From NCBI RefSeq assembly GCF_036013525.1, contig NZ_CP107853.1, positions 9,982,001-10,046,000 of the forward strand: a DNA stretch of 64,000 nucleotides, given 5' to 3'. This DNA comes from Nonomuraea sp. NBC_00507 (lineage in GTDB: Bacteria > Actinomycetota > Actinomycetes > Streptosporangiales > Streptosporangiaceae). Under the pieces are notes generated by a model. That model was not told where the DNA came from and made no database searches. It saw only the letters and a program-made list of their open reading frames with translations. The translations under genes were made by a program, and so were the position numbers. Shown here piece after piece: positions 19,864 through 41,988 of the stretch; positions within the stretch are counted from its first letter, which is position 1; each line of letters starts with the position of its first letter.

Positions 19864-19891
19864 AAGCGGCGAAGCGGAAGAAAGGCACACC

Positions 19892-20584
19892 GTGATTCAT
19901 CAGTTGATCTTCGCCGCCCCGAAGCCGGGAATGAGCGACAAGGAGTTCCAGGACTACTGGCTCAATGTGCACGCGGTGAAGTACGCGAGCAAGATCCCGC
20001 AGATCCGGAAGTACAAGATCGACACCGTGCTCCCGTTCCCGGCGCTCGGTGAGCCGCTGTGGAGCGGCATCGCGGAGATCTGGCTGGCCAACGAGGAAGA
20101 ACAACTCGCGTCTTTGCAGACCAAGGAGTTCCTGGAGGGCGCCAGGCTCGACGAGCCGCGCTGGGCGGCGTTCTGGCGGACGCTCGTGCTCGACACCGAC
20201 GCCTACGAGCTGGCGGGCGGTCCCGACGCGAGCACGGATCCGGCGGGGGTGAAGCTGGTCTCCCTGGTGAAGCGGAAGGAAGGCCTGCCCCTGGAGGACT
20301 TCAGGGAACGCAGCAGAACCAAGCACGCCGACCTGGTCACGCGGATCCCGGGACTGCGCCGCTACATGCAGGGTCACACCCGCGACGGCGCCTACGGCAT
20401 CGGTGAGGCGGTGCTCGACAGCGCGCACCAGCTCTGGTTCGACAACGTCGACGCCCTGTCGGCGGCACTGAACTCGCCGGAGTTCCGTCAGGCCGAAGAG
20501 GACCTGCGCACCTTCACCGAGCCGCGCTACATCCACCGCCTGGTCGTCCGGGAGCACTGGGTCATCGGACCCGAGCCTCGCTGA
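19892..20584 (+). CDS. Tandem EthD-domain protein
   Basis: 230 residues from GTG at 19892; the open frame runs further upstream through the previous gene in another frame. Two EthD/dimeric alpha-beta-barrel halves are visible. The first half is MIHQLIFAAPKPGMSDKEFQ with DYWLNVHAVKYASKIPQIRK. The second is VKLVSLVKRKEGLPLEDFRE with SRTKHADLVTRIPGLRRYMQ. EthD folds occur in ethyl-tert-butyl-ether degradation and in aromatic polyketide cyclases or anthrone oxidases. A strong terminator hairpin follows 14 bp later, so this ends the 18.1-20.6 kb operon. Confidence 0.82.
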   Translation: MIHQLIFAAPKPGMSDKEFQDYWLNVHAVKYASKIPQIRKYKIDTVLPFPALGEPLWSGIAEIWLANEEEQLASLQTKEFLEGARLDEPRWAAFWRTLVLDTDAYELAGGPDASTDPAGVKLVSLVKRKEGLPLEDFRERSRTKHADLVTRIPGLRRYMQGHTRDGAYGIGEAVLDSAHQLWFDNVDALSAALNSPEFRQAEEDLRTFTEPRYIHRLVVREHWVIGPEPR

Positions 20585-20598
20585 CGTGGGGCTCACCA

Positions 20599-20636
20599 AG
20601 ACGGAGCCCTGCCCGATGCCGGGCAGGGCTCCGTCT
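20599..20636. terminator. Strong terminator hairpin
   Basis: A perfect 17-bp stem (AGACGGAGCCCTGCCCG and its reverse complement) with a four-base loop, between the convergent EthD gene and the IS701-like gene. It can serve both strands. Confidence 0.85.
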
Positions 20637-21715
20637 CAGATCGCGGTACGGAAGCCGTCGGATTCGGCGATCCGCCGCAGGCGATAGCCCCAGGCGAGCG
20701 AGGAGAGGGTGACGTGATGGTGCCAGCCGCGGAACGAGCGGCCCTCGAAGTGGCGCAGGCCGGTCTCATCACTCATGCGCGCCAGGCCGTCGGCAGCGCT
20801 GTGCCGCAGATTGATCAGCGCGGTGAGGCCGTACAGATCGATATGAGTGAGGTTGCTGAGCCACGCGCTCTTCAGCCAGCCGCGGGGGCTCCACTCCACG
20901 ATCAGCTTCCGGTCGCTCGACGGCAGGCGAGTTCGTAGCAGGACCGACGTGAACCGCGACTCCCCCGTCCCGTCGTCTCGCCACAGCGTCAGCCCCCCGC
21001 TGCCGAGGGCCGCGCGCGACGCCAGGTCTCCCACGGTCACCTCGCCGGACATGGCCGTGGTCTCCGCCACACGGACCACGTACTGCAGAGCGCGTTCCTC
21101 CAGCGCCGTCACCAGGCGCAGGACGTCCGGGTCCGGTTCGGCCGGCACGATGACCGGGGCGGGCCGCAGGCCCGCGGCCGTCCTGAGTTCGTCGACGAGG
21201 TCGACGACGTGGCACACCCGAGGCCGGTGCCGAATCGTGTCGGGCACCCCGGTAAGCGCGCGCCGCTCCTCGTCCTGGTCCCACGACTTGGGCAGCATGA
21301 GCCGCCAGTCCACGGGACAGGCACCGGGGTCGCCCACCAGGAGCGCGGCCAGGGCCAGCTGGCAGTTCAGCCGTCTGCCCTCGGTGGCGGCGAACTGGCG
21401 GGCCACGCCGACCGACTTGTCGCCGTTCTTGGGAAAGGCCACCTCCGCCACCACCCAGGCCCGCGGGCGAACGACGCCTACCAGGCTGCGGGCGAGCACG
21501 TGCCGGACGGCGACGTGGTCCCACGGGCTCTGGTTGACGAACTGCTGCAGGCACTGGTCGGCCGGCCGGCCGGTGATCTGCTCGGCAATGCGACGGAGGG
21601 ACTTCCTGCCGGGGATCTCCACGAGCCCCCGGATGTAAACCTCGCCCCAGCGCCGCTGATCGGACCGGGGCAGCGGGGACAGCATGTCATGGCAATATCG
21701 GCCGAGGTCGTCCAT
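20636..21715 (-). CDS. IS701-transposase-derived protein, apparently catalytically dead
   Basis: 359 residues from ATG at 21715, which has GAGGAA upstream; the longer frame is less likely. The fold follows IS701-type DDE transposases: a helical N terminus (LQQFVNQSPWDHVAVRHVLA), then VVAEVAFPKNGDKSVGVARQ, then a C-terminal HFEGRSFRGWHHHVTLSS. The catalytic DDTGFPK motif is AEVAFPK here, and the second acid (VADAGYG) reads VPAEPDP. The final Glu (FEGR) is kept. No inverted-repeat ends were seen beside it. It has a dedicated start site and terminator and looks like a domesticated gene. A divergent paralogue lies at 38872-40056. Confidence 0.75.
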   Translation of the reverse strand: MDDLGRYCHDMLSPLPRSDQRRWGEVYIRGLVEIPGRKSLRRIAEQITGRPADQCLQQFVNQSPWDHVAVRHVLARSLVGVVRPRAWVVAEVAFPKNGDKSVGVARQFAATEGRRLNCQLALAALLVGDPGACPVDWRLMLPKSWDQDEERRALTGVPDTIRHRPRVCHVVDLVDELRTAAGLRPAPVIVPAEPDPDVLRLVTALEERALQYVVRVAETTAMSGEVTVGDLASRAALGSGGLTLWRDDGTGESRFTSVLLRTRLPSSDRKLIVEWSPRGWLKSAWLSNLTHIDLYGLTALINLRHSAADGLARMSDETGLRHFEGRSFRGWHHHVTLSSLAWGYRLRRIAESDGFRTAI

Positions 21716-21825
21716 GGTGGGTTCCTCATTGTCGGCTTTCCGCAATTGGCCCCAAATTAGGCGCGCCCGCCGGGCGGGCGGCAATGATATGCGGAGACTT
21801 TCAGAACTAGCCGGATCCGCGGCCA

Positions 21826-22010: not shown

Positions 22011-22838
22011 ATGTCGCCCAAGATTCTGGTGATCCTGTCCGAATACGGGTACTGGGGAGAGGAGTTGGTCGGGCCGCTGACCCGTTTCGATGAAAAGGGT
22101 TACGAGGTGGTCTTCGCCACCCCGACGGGGCGGCGCGCGCACGCCCTGCCGCCGAGCATGGACCCTGGGTACGTCGACCCGCCGCTGGGCCGGTCGGTGA
22201 CCACGCCGGAGGTCGCCAAGCTCACCAAGGAGCTCGACGAGTCCAGCCGGCTGGACAACCCGCTCAGCCTGACGGACATCGTTCCCGAGCGGCCCTACAC
22301 CGCCGACGCCGACTACCTTCGCCAGCTGGAGCGATACCATCACGCGCTGGCCCGGGTGGAGGACGAGTTCGTCGCCGGATTCGACGCCCTGCTGATCGTG
22401 GGGGGCAGCGGACCCATCGTCGACCTGGGCAACAACGAGCGGGTCCACGCGCTCATCCTGGCCTTCCTCAAGGCGGGCAAGCCCATCGCGGCCGAGTGCT
22501 ACGGGGTGACCTGCCTGGCCTTCGCCCGGGACTGGGAGGACCGCAAGAGCATCATCTGGGGCAAGCACGTCACGGGTCACTGCAAGGAGTACGACTACAA
22601 GGACGGCACCGGCTTCCTCGGCACCGACTTCGTCATGGGCCCGCCGCCGTACCCCCTCGAGTACATCCTGCGGGACGCCACCGGTCCTGACGGCCGCTAC
22701 CACGGCAACTTCGGCAAGGAGACGTCCGTCATCGTCGACTACCCGTTCATCACCGGGCGCTCCACCCCGGACTCCTTCCTGACCGGCGAGAAGATCGTGG
22801 AGGTCCTCGAATCGGGCCTGCGCCGATACGGCTGGTGA
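22011..22838 (+). CDS. DJ-1/PfpI-family protein (class I glutamine-amidotransferase-like)
   Basis: 275 residues. ATG at 22011 with GGGAGA upstream. Starts MSPKILVILSEYGYWGEEL, with FDALLIVGGSGPIVDL and the nucleophile elbow PIAAECYGVTCLAFARDW (Cys at about 164). It is longer than typical PfpI proteins, closer to Hsp31-like members. Possible activities include hydratase, glyoxalase III/deglycase and amidase. It is the first gene of a coupled operon: its TGA overlaps the GTG of the ThDP enzyme gene. A second DJ-1 protein follows that enzyme, so the three probably act together on an alpha-keto or aldehyde intermediate. Confidence 0.83.
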   Translation: MSPKILVILSEYGYWGEELVGPLTRFDEKGYEVVFATPTGRRAHALPPSMDPGYVDPPLGRSVTTPEVAKLTKELDESSRLDNPLSLTDIVPERPYTADADYLRQLERYHHALARVEDEFVAGFDALLIVGGSGPIVDLGNNERVHALILAFLKAGKPIAAECYGVTCLAFARDWEDRKSIIWGKHVTGHCKEYDYKDGTGFLGTDFVMGPPPYPLEYILRDATGPDGRYHGNFGKETSVIVDYPFITGRSTPDSFLTGEKIVEVLESGLRRYGW

Positions 22839-24478
22839 CGGCCGTGACCAGGACCGGCAACGAAGCGATCATCGAGCAGTTCCTCGCCGACGGGATCACC
22901 TGCATGTTCGGCAATCCCGGCACGGTCGAGCAGGGTTTCCTTGACGCGGTCGAGAAGTTCGAGGAGATGCGCTATGTCTTGACGCTTCAGGAGGGCGTGG
23001 CCGTCGGCATCGCCGACGGATATGCCAGGGCCACCGGCGGGCCCGCGCTGGTCCAGCTGCACAGCGGGGTCGGCCTGGGCAACGGCATCGGCATGATGTA
23101 CCAGGCGATGCGCGGGCACGCTCCGCTCGTCGTCATCGCCGGCGAGTCCGGCGTCCGCTACGACGCGATGGACGCGCAGATGGCCGCCGACCTCGTCGCC
23201 ATGGCTCGGCCGGTCACCAAGTACGCCACCAGGGTGATCGACCCTTCCTCGGTGCTGCGGGTGCTGCGCCGGGCACTGAAGATCGCCATGACTCCGCCGA
23301 GAGGGCCGGTCTTCGTCTCCCTTCCGCTGGACGTGCTGGACCATCCGAACGACGAGCCGATCGTCCCGACGAGCCTGCCCATGACCGAGTCACTCCCCGT
23401 CCCTGAGCTGGTGGACCAGGCCGCCGGGCTGCTCGCCCGGGCCGAGCGTCCGCTGGTCCTCATCGGGGACGGCGTCGCGACTTCCGGCGCGCAGTCCGCA
23501 CTCACCCGGGTGGCCGAGCAGCTCGGCGCGGACGTGTGGGGCGTGGACTACGCCGAGGTGGGGATCGACGGACGGCACCCCCTCTACCGGGGCCAGACCG
23601 GGCACATGTTCGGCGAGGTGAGCAGGGCCATCGTGCGGGACGCGGACGCGATCCTCGTCGTGGGCACGTACCTGTTCCCCGAGGTCTTCCCCGATCTGTC
23701 CACGCCTTTCCGGGCCGACGCCCGGATCGTCCATATCGATCTCAACGCCTATGAGATCGCCAAGAACCATCCCGTGACGCTCGGCCTGGTGGCCGATCCC
23801 AAGGCGACGCTCACCGCCATCTCCGAGCGCCTGGAACGGCGGTTGACCTCCGCGGACCGGGAGGCGGCGGCGCTCCGGCTGCGTACGCTGCGCGACCGTG
23901 CCCAGGGTGACACGACCCACTCGCTGGTCGGGGAGTTCGCCGCCAGGCTCGCCGCGGTGGCGCCGGCCGACCTGATGGTCTTCGACGAGAGCCTCACTGC
24001 CTCCGGCGCGATAAGCGCCCATCTCCCCCCGGGGCTGCCCGGCCACTGGTTCCAGACCCGTGGCGGCTCGCTGGGGGTCGGCATCCCCGGCGCCATCGGC
24101 ATGAAACTGGCCCACCCCGACAAGACCGTCGTCGGCTTCACCGGCGACGGCGGGAGCATGTACACCTTCCAGGCGCTCGCGACGGCCGTGCGGGAGGGCG
24201 TCGGGGCGAAGTTCGTCATCTGCAACAACCGGAGCTATCGGCTGCTCGACCTCAACATCGAGAAGTACTGGAAGGAGCGGGGCATCCCGCACCATGCCTA
24301 TCCGCGCGCCTTCGATCTGTCCGACCTGGGCCTGGCCTTCGTGGACATCGCCCGCGGCTTCGGCGTGGACGGCATGCTCGTGGAGAAGCCGGCTCAGCTC
24401 GACGAGGCGCTGGACCGGATGCTCGCCAACGATCGCCCCTTCCTCCTCGATCTGAAGAGCGACGAGGGGGAATTGTGA
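22835..24478 (+). CDS. ThDP-dependent enzyme, benzoylformate-decarboxylase-like
   Basis: 547 residues, GTG start overlapping the upstream stop (GTGA). It has the three-domain fold of ThDP decarboxylases. The PYR domain has MFGNPGTVEQGF, the activating Glu in LTLQEGVAVGIADGYARATG and LHSGVGLGNGIG. The PP domain has the diphosphate motif GDGGSMYTFQALATAV followed by CNN. The NPG and LHS motifs are those of benzoylformate decarboxylase rather than acetolactate synthase. Likely reactions are decarboxylation or carboligation of a 2-oxo acid. The two flanking DJ-1-type genes are overlapped on both sides, which is unusual. Confidence 0.88.
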   Translation: MTAVTRTGNEAIIEQFLADGITCMFGNPGTVEQGFLDAVEKFEEMRYVLTLQEGVAVGIADGYARATGGPALVQLHSGVGLGNGIGMMYQAMRGHAPLVVIAGESGVRYDAMDAQMAADLVAMARPVTKYATRVIDPSSVLRVLRRALKIAMTPPRGPVFVSLPLDVLDHPNDEPIVPTSLPMTESLPVPELVDQAAGLLARAERPLVLIGDGVATSGAQSALTRVAEQLGADVWGVDYAEVGIDGRHPLYRGQTGHMFGEVSRAIVRDADAILVVGTYLFPEVFPDLSTPFRADARIVHIDLNAYEIAKNHPVTLGLVADPKATLTAISERLERRLTSADREAAALRLRTLRDRAQGDTTHSLVGEFAARLAAVAPADLMVFDESLTASGAISAHLPPGLPGHWFQTRGGSLGVGIPGAIGMKLAHPDKTVVGFTGDGGSMYTFQALATAVREGVGAKFVICNNRSYRLLDLNIEKYWKERGIPHHAYPRAFDLSDLGLAFVDIARGFGVDGMLVEKPAQLDEALDRMLANDRPFLLDLKSDEGEL

Positions 24479-25029
24479 GCCGGATCGGCGTCCTCATGGA
24501 GAGTGACTACTTCGAGCCCGAGATCTTCTACTATCGCTGGCGCTTCGCCGAAGAGGGGTACGAGGTCGACTTTCTCACCAGGTTGTGGGACCAGGACGAG
24601 CTCACCTTCACCGGCCACGAGTATCGTGCGCCGTTCACGGTGCGGCAGAGCCTGGAAGACCTCGATCTCGACCGCTACGCGGCGCTGATCGTGCCGTCCG
24701 GCATGGTGTCCGACCGGCTGCGCTACAGCGACGACGTCGACGTCCTCGCCCCTGCCGTCAGCCTGCTCCAAAGGGCCTTCCGCGACCGGGGAACGATCAA
24801 GGGCATCATCTGCCACGGCATGTGGCTCGCCGCGCCCATCCCCGAGGTGGTACGCGGACGCAAGGTCGTCTGTCACAACAACCTCGTCGGCGATGTGCGG
24901 AACATGGGCGCCGAATACACCGACCAGGACGTGGTGATCGACGGGGATCTGGTGACTGGCCGGACCGGCCGGCATGCCCACCTCTTCGCCAGAACGATCA
25001 TCGACATGTTGAAGGGAGACCGGCGGTGA
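24475..25029 (+). CDS. Second DJ-1/PfpI-family protein
   Basis: 184 residues, GTG overlapping the previous stop (GTGA) and its own stop overlapped by the next start. Starts MSRIGVLMESDYFEPEIFYY. The nucleophile elbow is IKGIICHGMWLAAPI, with a Cys-His pair as in PfpI and YhbO. The position of an early acidic residue (ESDYFEPE) fits the Glu/Asp that tunes the Cys. Sequence is distant from the first DJ-1 gene at 22011, so this is not a recent duplication. Function is inferred only from fold and context: processing of the ThDP enzyme's substrate or product. Confidence 0.82.
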   Translation: MSRIGVLMESDYFEPEIFYYRWRFAEEGYEVDFLTRLWDQDELTFTGHEYRAPFTVRQSLEDLDLDRYAALIVPSGMVSDRLRYSDDVDVLAPAVSLLQRAFRDRGTIKGIICHGMWLAAPIPEVVRGRKVVCHNNLVGDVRNMGAEYTDQDVVIDGDLVTGRTGRHAHLFARTIIDMLKGDRR

Positions 25030-26825
25030 ACTTCACCTTTTCCGACACGATTGCCGGTCGGGTCGTCGGTTACGAGCGCGCCGGCAAGATCCTTCGCTTG
25101 AGGACCGTCGACGACCGGGAGTTCGCCGTGTCGCTGGCCGGCTCTCCCAGTGCGGAGCTCCTGCGCAACCTCGGCGAACCGTACATCGACGCCAGCGGAC
25201 ACCTGGAGGACATGCTCGAACCCGGGCGGTTCCTCTTCGCCTACGGGATCTTCTACCCCGGTGGCCGGTTCGACGCCAAGCGGTTGATCTTCCTGGGTCG
25301 GCGCGGCGGCGCGGCCCGGTTCGAGGAGTCGAGCTGGTGGATCAGCCAGCTCAAGGAGATCGCCTCCTTCTACCGCAAGGCGCAGTTCGGCGACGGGCCG
25401 GTGGACTACACCGAGTACCGCACGAATATCAGGCTGGGCGGCGAGAAGACGAGCAGCCACCGGCAGGAGACCGACACGATCTCCCGCCTGGTGTACGGCA
25501 TGGCCACGGCCTACCTGCTCAGCGGCGAGGACGCCTATCTCGAGGTGGCCGAGCGCGGCACCGAGTATCTCCGCAAGCAGATGCGGTTCGTCGACGTCGA
25601 GGAAGACGTCGTGTACTGGTACCACGGGGTCAGCATCGACGGTGATCGCGAGAAGAAGCTGTTCACCTCGGAGTTCTCCGACGACTACGACGCGATCCCG
25701 ATGTACGAGCAGATCTACGCGCTGGCCGGGCCGGTGCAGACGTACCGGGTCACGGCCGACCCGCGCATCAAGAAGGACGCGGACGCCACGCTACGGCTCT
25801 TCGAACGGTTCTTCCTCGACCACCAGCACGGCGGCTACTTCTCGCACATCGACCCGATCATGCTCAGCTTCGAGCACGAGTCGCTCGGCCCGAACCTGGC
25901 CAGGAAGAACTGGAACTCTGTGGGCGACCACGCGCCGGCGTACCTGATCAACCTGTACCTGGCGACCGGCGAGCGGCGCTACGCCGACTTCCTGGAGTCA
26001 ACGTTCGACACCATCGTCGAGCGGTTCCCCGACGACAAGAACAGCCCGTTCGTGCAGGAGCGGTTCCACCGGGACTGGACGCCGGACACCACCCACGGCT
26101 GGCAGCAGAACCGGGCCGTGGTCGGCCACAACCTGAAGATCGCCTGGAACCTCATGCGCATGAACTCGTTGCGCCCCAAGGCGGCCTACTCCGACCTGGC
26201 CGCCCACATCGCGAGGACCATGCCGGCGGTCGGCAGCGACCGGCAGCGCGGCGGCTGGTACGACGTCCTGGAGCGGACGCGCGAGGAGGACATCGGCGGG
26301 CACGCGTTCGTCTGGCACGACCGCAAGGCGTGGTGGCAGCAGGAGCAGGCGATCCTGGCCTACCTCATCCTCGCAGGGGTCACCGGTGAGGAGTCCTACC
26401 TGGCCGAGGCCCGCACCGCCGAGTCGTTCTACAACGCCTTCTTCCTCGATCACGACGAAGGGGCGGTCTACTTCAACGTCCTGGCGAACGGCCTGCCGTA
26501 CCTGCTCGGTACCGAGCGGCTGAAGGGCAGCCACTCGATGAGCATGTACCACTCGGCCGAGCTGTGCTATCTGGCGGCCGTCTACAACAACCTGCTGATC
26601 AATGGGTCGCCACTGGATCTGCACTTCCAGCCGGATCCGTCCGACGTGCCGCGGCGGATCCTGCGGGTCTCGCCGGACCTGTTGCCGCCGGGGCGGGTCC
26701 GGGTCGCCGAGGCCGAGGTCGACGGCGAGCCCTACAAGGATTTCGACGCCGAGGCGCTCACCGTGCGGCTCCCGGACGTGTCACGCAGGGTCAGGGTCAA
26801 GGTGCGATTGGAGGTGACCCGATGA
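25026..26825 (+). CDS. AGE-family epimerase-like protein with an N-terminal extra domain
   Basis: 599 residues from GTG at 25026, overlapping the upstream stop. Residues 1 to about 95 form a small beta-rich domain (AGRVVGYERAGKILRLRTVD). The rest is an alpha6/alpha6 barrel of the N-acylglucosamine 2-epimerase/cellobiose 2-epimerase type: GGYFSHIDP, NSVGDHAPAYLINLYL, HGWQQNRAVVGHNLKIAWNL and DRKAWWQQEQAILAYLILAG. The last two resemble the GH..E and WW.QAE active-site helices. About 600 residues is longer than usual (400). It probably acts on an oligosaccharide or sugar conjugate, in keeping with the GlgX gene further down the operon. Confidence 0.78.
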   Translation: MNFTFSDTIAGRVVGYERAGKILRLRTVDDREFAVSLAGSPSAELLRNLGEPYIDASGHLEDMLEPGRFLFAYGIFYPGGRFDAKRLIFLGRRGGAARFEESSWWISQLKEIASFYRKAQFGDGPVDYTEYRTNIRLGGEKTSSHRQETDTISRLVYGMATAYLLSGEDAYLEVAERGTEYLRKQMRFVDVEEDVVYWYHGVSIDGDREKKLFTSEFSDDYDAIPMYEQIYALAGPVQTYRVTADPRIKKDADATLRLFERFFLDHQHGGYFSHIDPIMLSFEHESLGPNLARKNWNSVGDHAPAYLINLYLATGERRYADFLESTFDTIVERFPDDKNSPFVQERFHRDWTPDTTHGWQQNRAVVGHNLKIAWNLMRMNSLRPKAAYSDLAAHIARTMPAVGSDRQRGGWYDVLERTREEDIGGHAFVWHDRKAWWQQEQAILAYLILAGVTGEESYLAEARTAESFYNAFFLDHDEGAVYFNVLANGLPYLLGTERLKGSHSMSMYHSAELCYLAAVYNNLLINGSPLDLHFQPDPSDVPRRILRVSPDLLPPGRVRVAEAEVDGEPYKDFDAEALTVRLPDVSRRVRVKVRLEVTR

Positions 26826-27166
26826 CGGACACGACGCTGACCTCTCAGCGGGTCGGCGAGCTCACTGTGGTGCGGATCTCCGGCGAGATCACCAGCGCGA
26901 CCTCATCCGGCCTGCAGGATCGCCTGCTCCCGTTGATCGGGCAGGGTGCGAGCCTGCTGGTCGATCTGACCGCCGTGCCGTACATCTCCAGCGCGGGACT
27001 GCGCACCATGCTGCTCGCCCACCGGCGGGCACAGGAGGTCGGCGCCGCGATCAGGTTGTTCGGCCTGTCGGACGAGGTGCGATTCGTGATGTCGGCGACG
27101 GGCTTCCTGGCCTTCTTCCACATCGGTGAGGACCTGGAGACCGAGCTGGGGCGTGCCAGGTCATGA
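26822..27166 (+). CDS. STAS-domain anti-sigma factor antagonist (first copy)
   Basis: 114 residues, ATG overlapping the upstream stop (ATGA) and itself overlapped by the GlgX start. The STAS core LTVVRISGEITSATSSGLQD and the phosphorylation loop AVPYISSAGLRTMLLAHRRA are visible. The Ser in SSAG (about residue 59) is the expected target of an RsbW-type kinase. Partner-switching proteins of this kind release a sigma factor when dephosphorylated. It is separated from the second STAS protein by glgX, an unusual interleaving. Confidence 0.9.
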   Translation: MTDTTLTSQRVGELTVVRISGEITSATSSGLQDRLLPLIGQGASLLVDLTAVPYISSAGLRTMLLAHRRAQEVGAAIRLFGLSDEVRFVMSATGFLAFFHIGEDLETELGRARS

Positions 27167-29277
27167 GCGTTCAGGAGAACTGGGAGAGAATCGACGTCGT
27201 CCCCACCAGGGAGATCTCCGGATATCGCGTCAGGCGCGGTAGACCGATGCCCTACGGGGCGACCATCGTGCCCGGCGGTGTGAACTTCTCGGTCTTCTCC
27301 GATCGGGCCACCTCCATGGCACTGGTGCTTTTCGAGCGGGGTGCCCCGAGCCCGACCGCGGTGCTGCCCATCCCGGAGTCGTTCCGGGTGGGCAGCGTCT
27401 TCACGATCACCGTGTTCGGGCTCGACCACGAGAACCTGGAGTACGGCTTCTACGCCGACGGTCCCTACGATCCGGCCCGCGGTGACAGGTTCGACTCCTC
27501 CAAGGTCCTCACCGACCCGCACGCCCGGCTGCTGTCCGGCCGGGAGACCTGGGGCGCCGAACCGAACTGGGACGACATCTATCAGTACCGCTCCCGGCTG
27601 CTCTACGACGACTTCGACTGGGAGGACGATCGGCCGCCGGGCATCCCCTTCGAGGATCTGATCATCTACGAGACCCACGTCCGGGGCTTCACCCGCCACC
27701 CCTCGTCGGGGGTGAGCGGGCCGGGCACCTTCACCGGACTGCGGGACAAGATCCCGTATCTGCGGGAGCTCGGCGTCAACTGCGTCGAACTCATGCCGAT
27801 CTTCGAGTTCGACGAGTTCGACAACCCGCGCGTCAACCCGGTCACCGGTACCAAGCTGCACAACTACTGGGGCTACAACACCGTCGGGTTCTTCGCCCCG
27901 AAGGCCGGCTACGCCGCCACCGGGCAGTACGGGATGCAGGGCGACGAGCTGAAGACGCTCATCAAGGACCTGCACAAGGCGGGCATCGAGGTCATCCTCG
28001 ACGTCGTCTTCAACCACACCGCCGAGGGCAACGAACACGGGCCGACCATTTCGTTCCGCGGCCTGGACAACGCCACCTACTACATGCTCACGCCGGAGGG
28101 CTACTACTACAACTTCAGCGGCACAGGCAACACGGTCAACTGCAACCACCCGGTGGTGCGCGACTTCGTGCTCGGCTGCCTTCGCTACTGGGTGTCGGAC
28201 TATCACGTCGACGGCTTCCGGTTCGATCTGGCCGCGATCCTCGACCGCGCGCCCGACGGCACGCCGCTGCCCAACCCGCCGCTGCTTGAGCAGCTCGCCT
28301 ACGACCCGCTGCTGCGCCGCTGCAAGCTGATCGCCGAGGCATGGGACGCGGCGGGCCTCTACCAGGTCGGCGGCTTCCCCTCCTACGGCCGCTGGTCGGA
28401 GTGGAACGGCCGCTATCGAGACACGCTGCGCCGCTTCATCAAGGGCGATCCCGGCGTGGCCGGCGACATGGCCACCCGCATGGTCGGCTCCCCTGACCTG
28501 TACCACGGCCGCTCGGCGTCGGCGTCGATCAACTTCGTCACCGCCCACGACGGCTTCACGCTGATGGACCTGGTCTCCTACAACGACAAGCACAATGAGG
28601 CCAACGGCGAGGGCAACGGGGACGGGGCCAACGACAACAACAGCTGGAACTGCGGGGCCGAAGGACCCACCGACGACCCCGTGATCCAGGAGCTTCGCCT
28701 GCGGCAGATGAAGAACGCGATGGCGCTGCTGCTCGTCAGCCAGGGTGTGCCCATGATCCTTTCGGGCGACGAGGTCGGCCGCACGCAGCAGGGCAACAAC
28801 AACACCTACTGCCAGGACAACGAACTGTCCTGGTTCGACTGGTCGCTGGTGGACGACAACGCCGAGCTGCTGCGGTTCGTCCGCCTGATGATCGCGTTCC
28901 GGCACGCCCATCCCCTGGTGCGGGCGGCAGCGCATCCGCTGGGCGCCGATCCCTCCGGACGAGGCGGCCCGCCGGACGTGAGCTGGCACGGTGCACGCGC
29001 CTGGGCGCCCGACTGGTCCCCGGGGAGCCGGCTGGTCGCCGCCCTGCGGACAGGAACAGACCAGGACGGCAAGGTCGAGCGCATCTACGTGGCGGCCAAC
29101 GCCCACTGGGAGCCCGCTGAACTCGAGCTGCCGGGGAGCGGCTGGCGAGTCGTCGCGGACACGGGAGCCGCGCACCCGTACGACATCTATGAGTTCCGTT
29201 ACGAACAACCGACCGTGGAGGACCGCTACCTGCTGGGTCCCCGATCCGTCCTGATCCTCGTGGGCCAGGACAACTGA
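27163..29277 (+). CDS. glgX: Glycogen debranching enzyme GlgX
   Basis: 704 residues, the normal length for GlgX. ATG overlaps the previous stop (ATGA). The N-terminal CBM48-type domain is PYGATIVPGGVNFSVFSDRA. The GH13 barrel follows: EVILDVVFNHTAEGNEHG, nucleophile Asp in GFRFDLAAIL (about 355), acid/base Glu in LIAEAWDAAG (about 392), and FVTAHDGFTLMDLVSYNDKH. It hydrolyses alpha-1,6 branches of phosphorylase-trimmed glycogen. No other glycogen gene is in the window; instead it sits between two STAS genes, so carbon-store mobilisation may be wired to a partner-switching signal. Confidence 0.93.
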   Translation: MSVQENWERIDVVPTREISGYRVRRGRPMPYGATIVPGGVNFSVFSDRATSMALVLFERGAPSPTAVLPIPESFRVGSVFTITVFGLDHENLEYGFYADGPYDPARGDRFDSSKVLTDPHARLLSGRETWGAEPNWDDIYQYRSRLLYDDFDWEDDRPPGIPFEDLIIYETHVRGFTRHPSSGVSGPGTFTGLRDKIPYLRELGVNCVELMPIFEFDEFDNPRVNPVTGTKLHNYWGYNTVGFFAPKAGYAATGQYGMQGDELKTLIKDLHKAGIEVILDVVFNHTAEGNEHGPTISFRGLDNATYYMLTPEGYYYNFSGTGNTVNCNHPVVRDFVLGCLRYWVSDYHVDGFRFDLAAILDRAPDGTPLPNPPLLEQLAYDPLLRRCKLIAEAWDAAGLYQVGGFPSYGRWSEWNGRYRDTLRRFIKGDPGVAGDMATRMVGSPDLYHGRSASASINFVTAHDGFTLMDLVSYNDKHNEANGEGNGDGANDNNSWNCGAEGPTDDPVIQELRLRQMKNAMALLLVSQGVPMILSGDEVGRTQQGNNNTYCQDNELSWFDWSLVDDNAELLRFVRLMIAFRHAHPLVRAAAHPLGADPSGRGGPPDVSWHGARAWAPDWSPGSRLVAALRTGTDQDGKVERIYVAANAHWEPAELELPGSGWRVVADTGAAHPYDIYEFRYEQPTVEDRYLLGPRSVLILVGQDN

Positions 29278-29294
29278 CGCGTAGGAGATCACTC

Positions 29295-29606
29295 ATGGCC
29301 TTCACTGCGACTCTGACGACCGAGGCGGGCACGGCGACCATCAAACTGACCGGTGAGATCGACGCCTCCACCGCGGCGCAGTTTCACGACAAGCTGGACG
29401 AGGCGGTGGCCTCCGCGGTGCAGAGGCTGGTCTTGCAGGCGGAGGAGCTGACCTACCTGGCCAGCGCCGGCCTGCGGGTACTGGTGTTCGCCCGGCAGAA
29501 GCTGGGCGAGAACGTGAGCATCGTGATCACTGGTGCGGCCGACCCGGTGGCGAGAACCATCCGCATGGCAGGGCTCGACCGTAGCATCGAGATGACGGTC
29601 GCGTGA
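29295..29606 (+). CDS. STAS-domain anti-sigma factor antagonist (second copy)
   Basis: 103 residues, ATG at 29295 with AGGAG in front, 17 bp after glgX. The core is TIKLTGEIDASTAAQFHDKL and the phosphorylation loop is LTYLASAGLRVLVFARQKLG, with Ser in ASAG at about residue 57. It shares only the family core with the first STAS protein, so the two probably have different partners or form a heteromer. The anti-sigma kinase gene begins 7 bp later. Confidence 0.9.
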   Translation: MAFTATLTTEAGTATIKLTGEIDASTAAQFHDKLDEAVASAVQRLVLQAEELTYLASAGLRVLVFARQKLGENVSIVITGAADPVARTIRMAGLDRSIEMTVA

Positions 29607-29613
29607 GTGGGCG

Positions 29614-30030
29614 ATGCGCTGCCTACCTGCGTCTCTGACATCCCTCGAAGAAGTCGCCCGCTATGTGCGCACGCTTGCCGACAGTGCGGGACTGCCCGCC
29701 CACGACGCGCATCGGCTGCGGCTGGCGGCAGACGAGTTGGTGACCAACATCGTCCTGCACGGCTACGGGGATCGGGAAGGCTCGCTGACCCTCGAAGGCG
29801 GCGTGGACAAGGAAGGGGTCTGGCTAAGGATCCAGGACGAGGGCAAACCCTTCGACCCCAGGGCCGGCTTCCAGCCGCCCGAGAACGGTGTGCCACCATC
29901 GGAGCGGCGGATCGGCGGCCTTGGGATCTTCCTCGCCCTGTCGTCGCTCGACGATTTCAGTTACGAACTGACGGCCGGACGGAACACGAGCACACTCGTG
30001 GTCCGCTCCGGCACGGATGAGAAAACATGA
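29614..30030 (+). CDS. RsbW-like anti-sigma serine kinase (HATPase_c_2)
   Basis: 138 residues. It carries the GHKL ATPase motifs of anti-sigma kinases: N box HRLRLAADELVTNIVLHGYG, G1 LRIQDEGKPFDPRAG and G2 RIGGLGIFLALSSLDD. It is expected to phosphorylate one or both neighbouring STAS proteins and to bind a sigma factor or another target; no sigma-factor gene is in this operon. ATG at 29614 is eight bases after the previous stop codon. It overlaps the phosphatase start by ATGA. Confidence 0.9.
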   Translation: MRCLPASLTSLEEVARYVRTLADSAGLPAHDAHRLRLAADELVTNIVLHGYGDREGSLTLEGGVDKEGVWLRIQDEGKPFDPRAGFQPPENGVPPSERRIGGLGIFLALSSLDDFSYELTAGRNTSTLVVRSGTDEKT

Positions 30031-31226
30031 ACAAGATCAAGGTTCTCGCGCTCAATGACCAGCGCGAGCTGCCGACCGACCTGGCCGACTCCTTGCGGCG
30101 ACTTGAACTGAACGTCGAGACCCGCTCCCCGGGGGAGATCCTCGGGGCGTCGAACGTGCCCGCGGCCGATGTGCTGCTGGCCGCGTGCGACGTGCCGCCC
30201 AACATCGTCCGCGCGGTCGGCCGCCGGCTGTCCGAGGGCGGCCACTATCCCGTCGTCCTGGCCTACACCGTGGACAACTTCGGGGCGCTGGAACGCCACA
30301 TCCGCGTCGGCGTCGACTACCTCGTGCCGCCGTTTCTCCCTGCCCTGGTGCAGGCGCGGATGCGTAGCTGCGCGGAGCGAGCGGAGATCAACCGCACGAT
30401 CCGGGAGACCGCGGAGCAGGCCGACCTGCTGCGCTACGAGCGAGAGCTGGAGATCGGCAGGGAGATCCAGCTGGGGTTCCTGCCGGACTCGCTGCCGAAG
30501 CCCGACGGCTGGCGGCTTTCGGTGCGCTACCGGCCGGCCCGTACGGTGGCGGGTGACTTCTACGACGCCTTCGAGCTGGTCAACCGGCGCAGGCTCGCGC
30601 TGATCGTGGCCGATGTGTGCGACAAGGGGGTCGGCGCGGCGCTGTTCATGGCGTTGATCCGCAGCCTCCTGCGGCACTCGGCCGAGCAGGCCGGCATGCC
30701 GGGAGTGGTCGGCATCGACCGGCTGGCCGACGATCTGCGGGGCGCGCCGCTGATCGGCGAGGCGCCGCTGCTCAACGCGGTGATGGGCACGAACGACTAT
30801 CTCACGCGCAACCATCTGCGGCAGGGCTACTTCGCGACCCTCTTCTTTGGCGTGCTGGACCCGGTGACCGGCAACGTCGTCTACGTCAACGGCGGGCACA
30901 ACCCGCCGGTGCTGCTGCGGGCCGACGGCGGGGATCCGGTGGTGCTCGACCCCACGGGGCCGGCGGTGGGAGTCGTACGCGACTCGCCGTTCGCGCTCGG
31001 CTACGCGCAGCTCAATCCCGGCGATCAGCTCTTCATCTACACAGACGGTGTGACGGAGGCCAGGGCCGAATCGGGGGAGTTCTTCGGGGAGGACCGCATG
31101 TTCGACGTCCTCGCGTCCGGCGATGTGGAGATCCTGCAGAGGATGGATGAGGAACTCGGCGCCTTCGTGGGCGAGGCCGAGCAGTCGGATGACATCACGA
31201 TGATGGCCGTCTACCGGATGCCCTGA
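30027..31226 (+). CDS. PP2C (SpoIIE/RsbU-type) phosphatase with N-terminal receiver-like domain
   Basis: 399 residues, ATG overlapping the kinase stop. Residues 1-115 look like a receiver (KVLALNDQRELPTDLADSL), but the usual acidic pair and phospho-Asp site are poorly conserved; ADVLLAACDVPPN is the closest. A helical linker (YERELEIGREIQLGFLPDSL) leads to the SpoIIE phosphatase, with metal-binding motifs RTVAGDFYDAFELV, LIVADVCDKGVGAALFM, YVNGGHNPPVLLR, IYTDGVTEAR and QSDDITMMAV. It should dephosphorylate the STAS proteins and so activate the switch. The atypical receiver suggests control by binding rather than phosphorylation. Confidence 0.9.
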   Translation: MNKIKVLALNDQRELPTDLADSLRRLELNVETRSPGEILGASNVPAADVLLAACDVPPNIVRAVGRRLSEGGHYPVVLAYTVDNFGALERHIRVGVDYLVPPFLPALVQARMRSCAERAEINRTIRETAEQADLLRYERELEIGREIQLGFLPDSLPKPDGWRLSVRYRPARTVAGDFYDAFELVNRRRLALIVADVCDKGVGAALFMALIRSLLRHSAEQAGMPGVVGIDRLADDLRGAPLIGEAPLLNAVMGTNDYLTRNHLRQGYFATLFFGVLDPVTGNVVYVNGGHNPPVLLRADGGDPVVLDPTGPAVGVVRDSPFALGYAQLNPGDQLFIYTDGVTEARAESGEFFGEDRMFDVLASGDVEILQRMDEELGAFVGEAEQSDDITMMAVYRMP

Positions 31227-31960
31227 TGCCTCAGGTCCTGACGGTCCACTCCTACCGCGGGGGCACCGGGAAATCCAGTGTGGCGGCCAACCTGTCCGTG
31301 CTGTTGGCCAAGGAGGGATGCCGGGTGGCGGTGCTCGACGCCGACATCCACGCGCCCTCCCTCGATACGATCTTCGGAATCAATCCCGGCCCGGGGGCCT
31401 GCTCGCTCGTCGACTACCTGGTCGGCGAGTGTGAGATCGAGGACGCGGTGTTCCCGCTCGAGCCTCCGGGGCTGTTCGCCGTCGTGGCCAGGACCAGCGT
31501 CGCCTCGATCAACGCGCTCACGACGTCCGGGTATGACGTCGGGCTGCTGAGCGAGGGCTACCTGCGGCTCATCGGCGCGTTCGGGCTCGACCTGCTGATC
31601 CTGGACACCCGTACGGGGCTCTGCCCCGAGACCGTCACGGCCATGGCGAGCTGTGACCGGCTGATCGTCGTCTCCCGGGCGGATCGGCTGGCCCTGGTGG
31701 GCGCGTCGGAGACCATGGCCCTGACCAACCGGCTCGGCTGCTCCGAGCGCGCGCTCGTGGTGAACATGGCGCCGGACGGTCAGATCGGCGAGGACTTCCG
31801 GCGCCGGCTGGAGGACCTGCACGGCTGCCCGATTGAGGCGATCCTGCCGTACGAGCCGCTGCTCGCGGCGCACGACGGCGAGGGACTGTTCGTGACTGCC
31901 CATCCGAACCATCCGCTGGTCACCGGCTTCCGCCGGATCATTTCCGCAGTGATCAAATAA
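31226..31960 (+). CDS. MinD/ParA-like (SIMIBI) ATPase
   Basis: 244 residues, ATG sharing one base with the phosphatase stop (TGATG). The deviant Walker A is HSYRGGTGKSSVAANLSVLL. It is followed by VLDADIHAPSLDTIFG and a Walker B-like DLLILDTRTGLCPETV. It resembles the CpaE/MinD/septum-site group that positions or switches on membrane or polar complexes, not plasmid ParA, and no ParB is present. Its coupling to the partner-switching genes suggests it is an effector or localiser for the pathway. The target is unknown. Confidence 0.87.
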   Translation: MPQVLTVHSYRGGTGKSSVAANLSVLLAKEGCRVAVLDADIHAPSLDTIFGINPGPGACSLVDYLVGECEIEDAVFPLEPPGLFAVVARTSVASINALTTSGYDVGLLSEGYLRLIGAFGLDLLILDTRTGLCPETVTAMASCDRLIVVSRADRLALVGASETMALTNRLGCSERALVVNMAPDGQIGEDFRRRLEDLHGCPIEAILPYEPLLAAHDGEGLFVTAHPNHPLVTGFRRIISAVIK

Positions 31961-32007
31961 CCGCCACAGACAACTGTCCTTCGCAGTGACAGAGCTAAGG
32001 GGGAACG

Positions 32008-33303
32008 GTGTTCGCGATCGCGCTTGCCGGCGGAAGGGGGGTGCGCGCACGCCCCTTAACGCTGACGACGCCGGACTACCTGCGGAGCAAGGCGGCCATG
32101 CGGGTGGCCGGGCGCAGCCTCATCGAGTGGTCGGTCGACCTGCTGGCCGCGCAGGGAGTGCGGGATTTCTACATCGCGGCCTGCGGGAGCGAGAACCGCG
32201 GCCAGATCAAGTCCATCCTCGACTACGGCGACCGGCTGGGTGTGTCGGTTCGCTATTCGCGCATGCGCTTCGACCGGCACAACACCGGGTCGGGCGAGGC
32301 GACGCTGCGGTGCCTGGAACATTGGAACCTCGACGGGCCCGGGCTGGTCTTCCCCACCGACTCGCTCTTCGAGTTCGATCTGCCGGCTATGGCGGGGGAA
32401 CACCGCGCGGCGGGGGCCGCGGTCACGGTGGCCGCGGTGCACCGTTCGACGGTGCAGGCCGAAGGCAAGTACGGCGTGCTCGACTGCGACTCCGACGGGG
32501 TCGTGTCGCGATTCGTGGAGAAGCCGGACCGCATGACCGCCCGCAGCCTGGCGGATCGGCACGGGCAGGTGCGGACGAACGCCGGCATGTACCTGATCGA
32601 CGGCGCGCGGCTGCGGATGGCGGCCCGCGATCCCGAACTGACCGCGCTGGTCCGCTCCCGCCTCGACTGGGGCCGCGACCTGCTGCCGTATCTGGTGTCA
32701 TGCGGGCATCGCGTGACCTCTCACGTGATCGACAGGTTCGGTGACCTGGGCAGCCCGTCCGACTTCCTCGACACGCTGCGCGACGTGCTCCATGACAAAT
32801 ATCCTCAGGTCAGTGACCGGATGGGCGCCCGCATTCACGAGAGCAGCCTCTATCTCAAGGACTCCGTCTCCAGCCGGACGCTCGCCGAGAAGATCCGCGA
32901 CGGCTCCGTTCGCGTGGGCGACAACGTGCGGATCGGCCGGGACGTGGAGATCGGCCCGGGGGTGGAGCTCTTCGACTCCGACATCGGCGACGGCGTGGAC
33001 GTCGGAGCGGGCGCGAAGCTGCACCGGGTCTCCTGCGGAGATCACAGCATCATCGGGCCGGGCGCCCGCCTCTCCGACGCCGTCGTCGGTCAGATGGTCG
33101 AGATCAGGTCAGAGCGGAACCACCCGGTGGTCCTCGTGGGATACTGCGCGCTCGGGGACGAGGTCCGGGTGCACGCGGGATTGCAGCTGCGCGGCGTCAG
33201 CATCTTCCCCCGACTGGAGGTCTGGTCCGACGCACGCGTCCCGCCGGGCACGTGCCTGATCGAGCCCCGGGACATCGTCCGGTGGTCGCCCCGCTCGGCA
33301 TGA
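32008..33303 (+). CDS. NDP-sugar pyrophosphorylase-like nucleotidyltransferase with left-handed beta-helix
   Basis: 431 residues. GTG start after AAGGGGG, about 47 bp after the ATPase stop. The N-terminal nucleotidyltransferase domain has IALAGGRGVRARPLTLTTP, FPTDSLFEF and the sugar-binding FVEKPD. The C-terminal part shows hexapeptide repeats (VRVGDNVRIGRDVEIGPGVE, DVGAGAKLHRVSCGDHSIIG). The classic GxGxRLxPLT loop reads GGRGVRARPLT, so key residues are partly kept. It could make an NDP-hexose or could be a regulatory paralogue like the large subunits of GlgC. It ends the plus-strand operon, 13 bp from the convergent aldo/keto reductase. Confidence 0.85.
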   Translation: MFAIALAGGRGVRARPLTLTTPDYLRSKAAMRVAGRSLIEWSVDLLAAQGVRDFYIAACGSENRGQIKSILDYGDRLGVSVRYSRMRFDRHNTGSGEATLRCLEHWNLDGPGLVFPTDSLFEFDLPAMAGEHRAAGAAVTVAAVHRSTVQAEGKYGVLDCDSDGVVSRFVEKPDRMTARSLADRHGQVRTNAGMYLIDGARLRMAARDPELTALVRSRLDWGRDLLPYLVSCGHRVTSHVIDRFGDLGSPSDFLDTLRDVLHDKYPQVSDRMGARIHESSLYLKDSVSSRTLAEKIRDGSVRVGDNVRIGRDVEIGPGVELFDSDIGDGVDVGAGAKLHRVSCGDHSIIGPGARLSDAVVGQMVEIRSERNHPVVLVGYCALGDEVRVHAGLQLRGVSIFPRLEVWSDARVPPGTCLIEPRDIVRWSPRSA

Positions 33304-36108: not shown

Positions 36109-36174
36109 GCTTCTCCTTTCACGCTAGGCGACGATGCTTCGCGAATTCGTGGATCAGGGTGGCGCAGGAGCCTT

Positions 36175-38871: not shown

Positions 38872-40056
38872 TCACGCCCGCCTCCTCAACATGTCCGCGG
38901 TGACGAGACCCGGGCGCTCACCTATGGTTTCGGACAGCAGCTTTCTGAAGGCGTGGGCGGCCGAGACCAGGGTCACGTGATGGTGCCACCCACGATAGGA
39001 CCGGCCCTCGAAGTCGCGGAGTCCGGTGTCGTTGGAGACGAGCATCCGCTGCTCCCTGACGCAGTCGACCGTCCTGGTGAGCCGGAACAGCGCGAGCGAC
39101 GTCACGTGCGTGATGCTGGTCAGCCAGTACTCGGTGCTGCCGCCGCTGGTGACGCCCAAGAGCACGAGCGGGGGCTCGTCGGCCGTCCGCTGGTCGGCCT
39201 GGCCGGGCATCTTCACCCGCGTGCACTGCACCAGTGTCGGCCGATGGCCGGGTGGGCCACCGCTCACCGGCTGGCCCAGATCCCGCAGCGCGTGGATGAG
39301 CTGGGAGGCCTGCATGCGACGGCCCGTCAGGAAAGGGACCCGGGAGTCCGTGGGACTGATCGGGGTCGATCCGTAGACCCGGACGGCGAACGGGATGCCG
39401 TGGCGGGAGAACTCGTTCATGATGGTCTCGAAGTTGAGCGATCTCGCGTCCATGACCACCGGCCGCGGCCGGAGTCCCCACCCGTGCAGGACGTTGATGG
39501 CGGCCTGCACGCCGAGTTCGCCCGCGTTCGCCACGGTGGCGTCGTCCGGCACGCCCGCGCGCCGGCGGCGCTCGTCGTCGAGCCAATTGCCGGACAACAC
39601 CATCTGCCAGTCGATCGGATACGCGTCGTGCTCGGCCGCCAGCCAGATGCCGAGCACCTCCTGAGAAGAGATCATCCGTCCCAGCTTCTGGTGGAAGCGC
39701 CGCTCCACGCCCACCGAGTGCTCGCCGGCCTTCGAGATGAGGACCTGTTCCACCACTACGGCGGCGAACTTGCCGTTCTGCTCCAGATAGGAGGCGAGCG
39801 CACGCCGGACCGGGGCCCAGTCCCAGGGCGAGTGGCTGATGAACTGCTGCAGACTCTGCTCCACGGCCGGCCCTGATTTGGCGGCCATTCTCCGAATGGT
39901 CTTGCGGCCCTCTGTGGTGAGCAGGCCGCGGAGGTAGCGTTGCGCGTGCTGCCGCTGATCACGCCGTCTGAGTGAGGCGAACAGCACGTCGCAAAACTCC
40001 GAGAACAGCTCTGATGATATTCTCTGCCGAATGATCGACTCGTCGATTGTGCTCAC
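38872..40056 (-). CDS. Second IS701-transposase-derived protein, active site degraded
   Basis: 394 residues from GTG at 40056, which has GGGGAGA upstream; the open frame is longer. It shares the layout of the 20636-21715 protein: LQQFISHSPWDWAPVRRALA, VVVEQVLISKAGEHSVGVER and DFEGRSYRGWHHHVTLVSAA. The first catalytic motif DDTGFPK is EQVLISK, so the first Asp is lost. The second acid may survive (VVMDARS). No terminal inverted repeats or target duplications were noticed. With its paralogue it brackets the 22-38 kb locus. Confidence 0.75.
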   Translation of the reverse strand: MSTIDESIIRQRISSELFSEFCDVLFASLRRRDQRQHAQRYLRGLLTTEGRKTIRRMAAKSGPAVEQSLQQFISHSPWDWAPVRRALASYLEQNGKFAAVVVEQVLISKAGEHSVGVERRFHQKLGRMISSQEVLGIWLAAEHDAYPIDWQMVLSGNWLDDERRRRAGVPDDATVANAGELGVQAAINVLHGWGLRPRPVVMDARSLNFETIMNEFSRHGIPFAVRVYGSTPISPTDSRVPFLTGRRMQASQLIHALRDLGQPVSGGPPGHRPTLVQCTRVKMPGQADQRTADEPPLVLLGVTSGGSTEYWLTSITHVTSLALFRLTRTVDCVREQRMLVSNDTGLRDFEGRSYRGWHHHVTLVSAAHAFRKLLSETIGERPGLVTADMLRRRA

Positions 40057-40206
40057 TGCGTCTCCCCGTGCAGAAACCCCCGTGCACTGGAAATAGTTGC
40101 AGCACGCACTGTCGCTGTGCTGTCTCTGCGTCACTGCTGTTCAGAGAGCCGACGGCGCGAGTATCGTGAGGCCGTAATAATTGTTCGGTTCGCAGATCAG
40201 ATCAAG

Positions 40207-41880: not shown

Positions 41881-41988
41881 GCTGACTCCTTCGCGGGGAG
41901 CGCCAGAACCCATGGGCTCGCTCATTTCCTCATTCCTCATGAGAGTCGGAGAGGCTCCTGGATGCCTTCGGGACGGTTCACGTCACGC

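Follow-up and report, generated by a model that had tools for sequence, protein, structure and literature searches.

The icfG cluster of the cyanobacterium Synechocystis PCC 6803 (slr1852 to slr1862), a long-standing puzzle of carbon control in cyanobacteria in which a pair of STAS proteins is combined with a kinase, a phosphatase and two sugar enzymes, was already being studied in the 1990s (1994 and 1999 papers cited in PMC12329169). According to the passages of the later reports drawn on here, it encodes a carboxymuconolactone decarboxylase (slr1853), an AGE family protein (slr1855), a STAS protein (slr1856), GlgX (slr1857), a second STAS protein (slr1859), the phosphatase IcfG (slr1860) and a kinase (slr1861) (PMC12329169, PMC8670252, PMC3564720, PMC11619594). 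The kinase is described there as having three STAS substrates, Slr1856, Slr1859 and Ssr1600, and as an anti-SigC factor that binds SigC and controls the RNA polymerase-SigC holoenzyme; SigC, the first sigma target of Slr1861, published in 2025, is freed by Ssr1600, whose gene lies elsewhere than in the cluster, and carbon phenotypes are mentioned for icfG-operon mutants (PMC12329169). IcfG is reported to dephosphorylate Slr1856 but not Slr1859, and growth to be impaired by the loss of Slr1859 but not of Slr1856 (PMC12329169, PMC11619594). No target for Slr1859 was found in the literature. Here, we describe an operon of this type in Nonomuraea sp. NBC_00507: eleven plus-strand genes at positions 22011 to 33303 of a stretch of 64,000 nucleotides (contig NZ_CP107853.1, positions 9,982,001 to 10,046,000), below referred to as the window, from an actinobacterial genome of 12.9 Mb.

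A sequence-only reading of this operon had named no described system with the same gene set. The icfG cluster, with its AGE, STAS, GlgX, STAS, PP2C and kinase genes, contradicts this; because it matches, the eleven-gene set is of a known kind, and we rejected the idea of a wholly unknown system. Compared through published gene lists rather than sequences, the window and Synechocystis share the order AGE-STAS-GlgX-STAS (by locus tag), together with a PP2C phosphatase and an RsbW-like kinase. All six genes stand in one cluster in the window, where, judging from sequence, both STAS proteins have a phosphorylatable serine and the ATP-binding motifs of the kinase are conserved. The two systems differ in that the window has the kinase gene ahead of the PP2C gene and Synechocystis has the reverse order, in that the window adds a thiamine diphosphate (ThDP) enzyme, a DJ-1 protein, a MinD-like ATPase and a nucleoside diphosphate (NDP)-sugar enzyme, and in that the window PP2C bears an apparently degenerate receiver; moreover, no counterpart of the carboxymuconolactone decarboxylase domain of Slr1853 was present among the Pfam-scanned window genes. 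Five cyanobacterial loci that we collected (L024, L025, L028, L065 and L086) show the AGE-STAS-GlgX-STAS order with PP2C and then the kinase. Judging from gene set, order and sequence, it is near certain that the window operon is an actinobacterial member of an old, widespread icfG-type cluster. Among the papers listed in a literature search, titles and abstract openings gave no description of the AGE/STAS/GlgX link.

A scan of one genome per species with AGE alone gave at least 551 loci, of which the best 80 by likeness to a Nostoc AGE were fetched (many of these 80 coming from metagenome-assembled genomes, and one, L072, from a record titled UNVERIFIED_CONTAM). Together with plasmid and actinobacterial loci, and without the duplicates L001 and L002 and five distant partial matches, they make up the 109 AGE loci considered below. 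The five-gene core AGE-STAS1-GlgX-STAS2-kinase, in which the STAS proteins are numbered by position, was complete in 85 of the 109, and AGE, STAS1 and GlgX were consecutive among the scored families in 91, in line with the earlier claim that the carbohydrate genes form a unit with the partner-switching set; the gene-order search which that reading had suggested revealed an order conserved across phyla. Thirteen phylum labels were found among the AGE loci and 12 among those with the full core (two Balneolota contigs stop shortly after GlgX, and the Bacillota label stems from a single record, titled as contaminated), a spread that is new relative to the described icfG cluster. Since the same core occurs under 12 phylum labels, the purpose of the cluster is not tied to photosynthesis. 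Its carriers include relatives of Accumulibacter and Competibacter, which are glycogen cyclers.

STAS1 and STAS2 form separate lineages, in that a branch with a support of 100 sets 95 STAS1 rows apart (FastTree; the alignment has only 112 columns, and the program flags long branches). Both serines of the motif SSAGLR were present in STAS1 at 95 of 95 loci, the second serine was present in STAS2 at 87 of 97, and the N-box glutamate and asparagine, the aspartate of the next box and the GGxG glycines of the kinase were invariant (85/85). STAS2 shares a reading frame with AGE in 11 of the 109 loci and STAS1 in none, while fusion of a STAS domain to GlgX was seen in none of 104 loci. The C-terminal STAS domains on AGE, all of the STAS2 type, occur in Gemmobacter, Gloeothece and the Nostoc-Chlorogloeopsis-Brasilonema group; L148 and L149 provide additional fusions beyond the 109 loci, and a large protein database holds 52 fused AGE-STAS clusters (precomputed annotation gives both Pfam domains for 47, and 49 contain the AGE motif GHNLK). 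A structure model of the L095 fusion reached a predicted template modeling score (pTM) of 0.82 and a mean predicted local distance difference test score (pLDDT) of 83.9.

In addition, STAS2 is retained where the other signaling genes are missing. Among the 95 loci with at least 7 kb of downstream sequence, 79 had STAS1, STAS2 and the kinase, 11 had STAS2 alone, 3 had STAS1 alone and 2 had none, with one of these last two, L013, possessing a divergent STAS2. STAS1, kinase and PP2C are absent from the fused loci with sufficient sequence and also from an actinobacterial group (L013, L144, L146 and L184) that keeps an unfused STAS2, which in L013 lies directly 3' of AGE although GlgX is not there. 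"Kinase-less" here means that no kinase was found within the fetched stretch, except for nine fusion-bearing genomes (including that of L070, whose stretch is just 8.6 kb), which were searched whole and gave no cluster-type kinase (any match, 25 to 33%; E > 1e-5). Conversely, at the loci with STAS1 and no kinase nearby (L008, L017 and L023), a kinase with 61 to 77% identity is encoded elsewhere in the genome or on a plasmid. Such patterns provide good evidence that STAS2 belongs with AGE.

Moderate evidence suggests that the kinase acts on STAS2. The predicted phosphorylation site of STAS2 is a serine in all 98 kinase-bearing loci scored (85 + 13, leaving out the kinase-bearing L150) and in only 2 of 17 kinase-less loci (L015 and L095; L148 and L149 are counted among the 17). 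Elsewhere among the kinase-less loci, the site holds threonine (nine Nostoc-group copies), alanine (L011, L013 and L077) or proline (L144, L146 and L184). A kinase cluster coexists with a fused AGE-STAS2 in two genomes, and the fused copy keeps its serine in each of them. A strict rule of no serine without a kinase was rejected on account of L015, L095 and 40 of the 52 fused proteins.

We propose that STAS2 would be a partner subunit that binds the AGE enzyme. In the absence of a signal, the kinase would phosphorylate STAS2 and thereby detach or silence it. A signal received at the exchangeable sensor part of PP2C would cause this phosphatase to dephosphorylate STAS1, which would then capture the kinase; STAS2 would stay unphosphorylated, and AGE would be active, beside GlgX, on what may be a glycogen-derived sugar, in a direction that is likewise conjectural. 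STAS1 would thus be the input arm and STAS2, as a phosphorylatable AGE partner, the output arm, a reading of ours that fits the Synechocystis data because IcfG acts on Slr1856 rather than on Slr1859 and loss of Slr1859, unlike that of Slr1856, impairs growth. Besides gene expression, the on/off switch may have a sugar enzyme as a direct target. To the reading as a whole, i.e., an icfG-type member in which a two-STAS partner switch is connected to carbohydrate enzymes, with AGE as its output via STAS2, we assign a probability of slightly less than one-half. Still more tentatively, the icfG-type cluster could be a pan-bacterial posttranslational switch with direct control over a sugar enzyme, in which STAS2 would be a phosphorylatable AGE subunit, fused to AGE in some lineages, and kinase, STAS1 and PP2C would make up a detachable input module, with transposase-derived DDE_5 proteins of degenerate catalytic site as its regular neighbors in actinobacteria.

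Several observations weigh against AGE as the output. Only three kinase/serine contrasts are independent (sign test, p = 0.25); the serine is still there in 40 of the 52 fused proteins (pattern matching gave 39, and inspection by eye added P0139), the kinase status having been determined for a minority of them; the threonine of most kinase-less Nostoc copies can be phosphorylated as well; and L015 and L095 keep the serine, the genome of L095 having no cluster-type kinase. The fusion may have a single origin, as one clade of seven fused AGEs was not rejected (approximately unbiased test, p-AU = 0.53) and two independent origins were not shown. A Gloeocapsopsis AGE (L147:10992-12875) ends in a short STAS2 stub, and a distant AGE lineage (L014, L185 and L186) shows no STAS in view. 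Finally, Synechocystis Slr1861 binds SigC and controls RNA polymerase-SigC, which amounts to a sigma output (PMC12329169). Transcriptional output is therefore the main rival of enzyme output: in a classical switch of this kind, the kinase would be an anti-sigma factor, the STAS proteins its antagonists and the sigma factor encoded elsewhere, with the enzymes being cotranscribed or part of the regulon. In its favor, Slr1861 holds SigC, which Ssr1600 releases (PMC12329169), and a sigma target in trans would be available in our host, since 110 Sigma70_r2 matches were found in its genome with 150 of 176 candidates scored. With the same 150 scored, no Sigma70_r2 match was found in the window or within 120 kb, nor was there a sigma factor among 20 Pfam-annotated neighbor families (the neighbors being partly scanned); furthermore, a purely transcriptional switch leaves unexplained both the STAS2-AGE fusion and the retention of STAS2 without kinase, STAS1 and PP2C. 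We consider it somewhat doubtful as the full account.

A dual output, with the kinase as a hub for a sigma factor as well as for STAS2-AGE and thus a joint between expression and enzyme activity, could draw on the sigma and the enzyme lines of support alike, and three STAS substrates are on record for the Synechocystis kinase (PMC12329169), but its enzyme arm is itself deduced from sequence comparison, and we regard this combination as unlikely. We give very little credence to the notion that the genes share no mechanism at all and form a carbon-starvation island that travels together by coselection only. DJ-1, ThDP and PP2C genes do diverge out of step with the core, copies of the cluster are found on plasmids, and just a 66% identical copy is present in G667, a genome listed under the species of the window's own genome; nevertheless, order and correlated divergence (Spearman correlation, 0.66 to 0.82) of the five core genes are maintained across phyla.

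If AGE is indeed switched through STAS2, carbohydrate enzymes would be under direct partner-switching control, and the STAS2-AGE fusions offer a concrete handle on the role of the second STAS protein. AGE with its STAS2 partner also seems a better effector candidate than the MinD-like ATPase, to which the sequence-only reading had given that part: with the window protein as the query, tblastn (which distant relatives may escape) detected the ATPase in only 30 of the 109 loci, and it is often absent beside an intact core, so that the ATPase as effector was rejected as a general rule. The P-loop RGGTGKS is present in 22 of the 30 scored relatives, and the models for MinD cell division ATPases were not reached (TIGR01968, 47.3 versus 212.9 bits; TIGR01969, 78.3 versus 201.75 bits).

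Membership of the proposed output enzyme in the AGE family is indicated by PF07221, two conserved histidines and, for the AGE part of the L095 model, an AGE fold (VIA-align). However, the scores for the AGE epimerase equivalogs were far from reached (24.7 versus 600 and 32.2 versus 800 bits), and the glutamate located three residues past the first histidine in the solved proteins 8bry and 8h1k was not found, with lysine in its place in 109 of 109 loci. On these two grounds, we do not call the window AGE an epimerase.

Divergence within the cluster is uneven. Pairwise distances of AGE, GlgX, STAS1, STAS2 and the kinase are correlated with each other at 0.66 to 0.82, as mentioned above, versus 0.28 to 0.39 for PP2C with these five genes, 0.13 to 0.36 for DJ1a and the ThDP gene and 0.16 to 0.27 for DJ1b; DJ1a and the ThDP gene are correlated with each other at 0.74 and with PP2C at 0.66 to 0.74 (all these values mix orthologues with some distant DJ-1/ThDP paralogues). 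The five core genes thus appear to be coinherited, PP2C and the DJ-1/ThDP genes less so. Among 10 scanned phosphatases, the input part was GAF in L022 and L024, a receiver in L035, Cache-HAMP in L040, L048 and L072 and a fused kinase in L010, with nothing recognized in the window, L061 and L085. From the distance correlations and the varied PP2C input domains, we conclude that a fixed core is combined with exchangeable input and side enzymes. That the phosphatase senses the signal, as supposed earlier, is a reasonable view, because the sensor part changes among the 10 phosphatases while the output genes remain.

The distribution of the cluster is patchy: matches occurred in 7 of 396 genomes of the phylum (full-length orthologues only in the window's own genome and in G352), 21 of 200 of the family and 35 of 345 of the order, one of the latter with distant copies only. 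The actinobacterial order is DJ1a-ThDP-(NTF2-GMC)-DJ1b-(VOC)-AGE-STAS1-GlgX-STAS2-kinase-PP2C-MinD, with losses in some loci. AGE relatives with 60 to 73% identity lie on plasmids of Streptomyces, Nostoc, Deinococcus and Gemmobacter, and others with 57 to 60% on further plasmids of Streptomyces, Nostoc, Gloeothece, Gloeocapsopsis and Runella. The plasmid relatives mostly keep their cluster neighbors, the exceptions being L014 and L147. The latter, with its STAS2 stub, looks like a truncated or decayed copy. L014, together with L185 and L186, has an AGE of 35 to 37% identity and DJ-1 and ThDP genes, with no STAS or kinase in view, and might be an unregulated cousin. Recent transfer between phyla was not supported, as the Actinomycetota form one AGE clade (approximate likelihood-ratio test [SH-aLRT] support of 100 in a quick tree). 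The sole AGE match in G667, 66% identical, belongs to another version of the cluster (L176), and because G667 carries only this copy, clusters seem to be exchanged within species.

The eleven predicted genes (Table 1) were borne out by Pfam domains above the cutoff and by orthologues that keep their order in other genomes; nine passed a coding signal filter based on third-codon-position GC content, with the first STAS gene and the kinase gene not among them. The coupling of the genes was also confirmed, with 4-base overlaps at 6 of 10 junctions, a 1-base overlap at another and gaps of 7, 17 and 47 bases at the rest. While the gene list was right, the starts of AGE and the first STAS gene had to be corrected to those given in the table.

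Table 1. Features of the operon and its immediate surroundings (window positions)
Feature	Position	Strand	Basis
EthD-domain protein (two stretches), upstream island member	19886..20584	+	EthD; orthologues in 8 related loci
DDE_5 transposase-like gene without first catalytic Asp	20636..21784	-	PF13546
DJ1a, DJ-1/PfpI-like ("type 1 glutamine amidotransferase domain")	22011..22838	+	Pfam ThiJ_like and DJ-1_PfpI above cutoff
ThDP enzyme, benzoylformate-decarboxylase-like	22835..24478	+	Three TPP_enzyme Pfam domains
DJ1b, DJ-1/PfpI protein	24475..25029	+	Pfam DJ-1_PfpI, 67.7 bits
AGE-superfamily enzyme, N-terminally extended; proposed output enzyme	25026..26825	+	PF07221
STAS1, Slr1856 type by position; proposed input arm	26822..27166	+	STAS and TIGR00377 above cutoff
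GlgX glycogen debranching enzyme	27163..29277	+	TIGR02100, 688.2 bits (cutoff, 640.9)
STAS2, Slr1859 type by position; proposed output arm	29295..29606	+	STAS (Pfam)
RsbW/SpoIIAB-type serine kinase	29614..30030	+	HATPase_c_2, 80 bits
PP2C (SpoIIE-type) phosphatase, degenerate receiver	30027..31226	+	SpoIIE, 151 bits
MinD/ParA-type ATPase, RGGTGKS P-loop	31226..31960	+	Pfam ParA/AAA_31/CbiA
NDP-sugar pyrophosphorylase-like, hexapeptide C terminus, accessory	32008..33303	+	NTP_transferase, 84 bits; Hexapep, 33 bits
Another DDE_5 transposase-like gene (identity with the one at 20636..21784, 33%)	38872..40134	-	PF13546

Orthologues of AGE are 58 to 77% identical in most loci, those of the STAS proteins and the kinase fall below that, and those of DJ1a reach 69 to 83% in actinobacterial loci. 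The top NCBIfam model for the ThDP enzyme, PRK07092, scored 309 bits, under its cutoff of 493, and GlgX missed a second GlgX model (NF002983, 538.4 versus 901 bits); two other GlgX-like genes, of 46 to 47% identity, lie elsewhere in the host genome. Matches covering over half of the NDP-sugar gene were seen in five other loci, hence its listing as accessory. As for the receiver-like part of PP2C noted in the sequence-only reading, Pfam finds none, but a stretch of 99 residues in the N-terminal part aligns at 35% with the receiver/linker of a Chloroploca receiver-PP2C, and on the basis of this alignment, we read it as a degenerate receiver. A defense island found no support, as PADLOC models gave, for 10 proteins, only a GlgB-type match (GlgX) and weak matches (ATPase), with no sign of defense.

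The neighborhood extends beyond the eleven genes, upstream to the EthD gene, which adjoins the DJ-1 gene in Streptomyces relatives; in the window, an opposite-strand DDE_5 gene intervenes. Of the 10 PF13546 matches in the host genome, the strongest pair, each with a full open frame, flanks the cluster; the remaining eight are weaker, partial or interrupted by stops. A DDE_5 gene lay at most 20.4 kb from AGE in 20 of 20 AGE-bearing genomes tested (1 to 13 matches per genome), for which the chance probabilities multiply to about 1e-37 under an assumption of independent genomes, which they are not; DDE_5 genes were also present in 16 of 20 AGE-less genomes, and 9 of 12 further canonical loci (about 20 kb each) show one within view. 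The first aspartate of the motif, whose residues we take to be catalytic, is missing in 29 of 30 rows from near AGE (representing 29 genes, one of them twice) and kept by the multicopy control L151, the only control element that aligned (L152 and L153 yielded no row), and by 5 of 10 copies from AGE-less genomes. A repeat finder gave several weak pairs of terminal repeats and no clear one, and, among the papers listed in a literature search, titles and abstract openings held no description of a DDE_5-cluster link. Position, copy pattern and the lost aspartate disfavor ordinary insertion sequences, and the DDE_5 neighbors look like a domesticated family. A perfect 17-base inverted repeat with a 4-base loop (positions 20599 to 20636), between the EthD and DDE_5 genes, is perhaps a two-way terminator.

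Further genes surround the operon. On the minus strand, a cyclic nucleotide (cNMP)-binding HATPase protein (16595-17998) and a receiver-flavoprotein disulfide reductase (40207-41940) have homologues directly after the fused AGE-STAS2 in cyanobacteria, as well as in 5 and 7, respectively, of 24 actinobacterial loci and in more of the further loci; perhaps they form a second, redox-like control module. On the plus strand, genes for a FAD monooxygenase, a VOC protein and a SnoaL-ankyrin protein (14555-16536 and 18088-19539) have relatives of 58 to 66% downstream of the AGE cluster on a plasmid of Streptomyces SAT1 (L146), which indicates that the island is wider than the operon. A single 1,178-residue frame (L020:1115-4651) joins carboxymuconolactone decarboxylase, EthD, glyoxalase, AtaL and SnoaL domains, several of which are separate cluster neighbors in other loci. 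L014, L143, L173 and L011 have Nif11-type leaders or weak matches to them, GMC oxidoreductases and EthD beside the cluster, possibly pointing to a peptide product. Two BTAD/NB-ARC regulators (34240-38571, minus strand) adjoin the cluster in the window.

Apart from icfG, three known systems invite comparison. The kinase, STAS and PP2C families and their key residues are those of the sigma switches RsbU-RsbV-RsbW and SpoIIAA-SpoIIAB, from which the window differs in having no neighboring sigma factor, two STAS lineages and a tie to enzymes. SiaABCD of Pseudomonas aeruginosa includes a PP2C phosphatase, SiaA, and a kinase, SiaB. The Hmp system of Nostoc punctiforme is another cyanobacterial PP2C-STAS-kinase set; it controls hormogonium development, and the passage describing it makes no mention of AGE or GlgX (PMC8256260). 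The nearest parallel to the proposed output is SiaABCD, a signaling set whose SiaC binds and activates the enzyme SiaD (PMC8457831). Its output is a diguanylate cyclase, whereas the window has one more STAS protein and carbohydrate enzymes, and the likeness is one of analogy only; by that analogy, however, partner switches can act on an enzyme, as we suggest for AGE.

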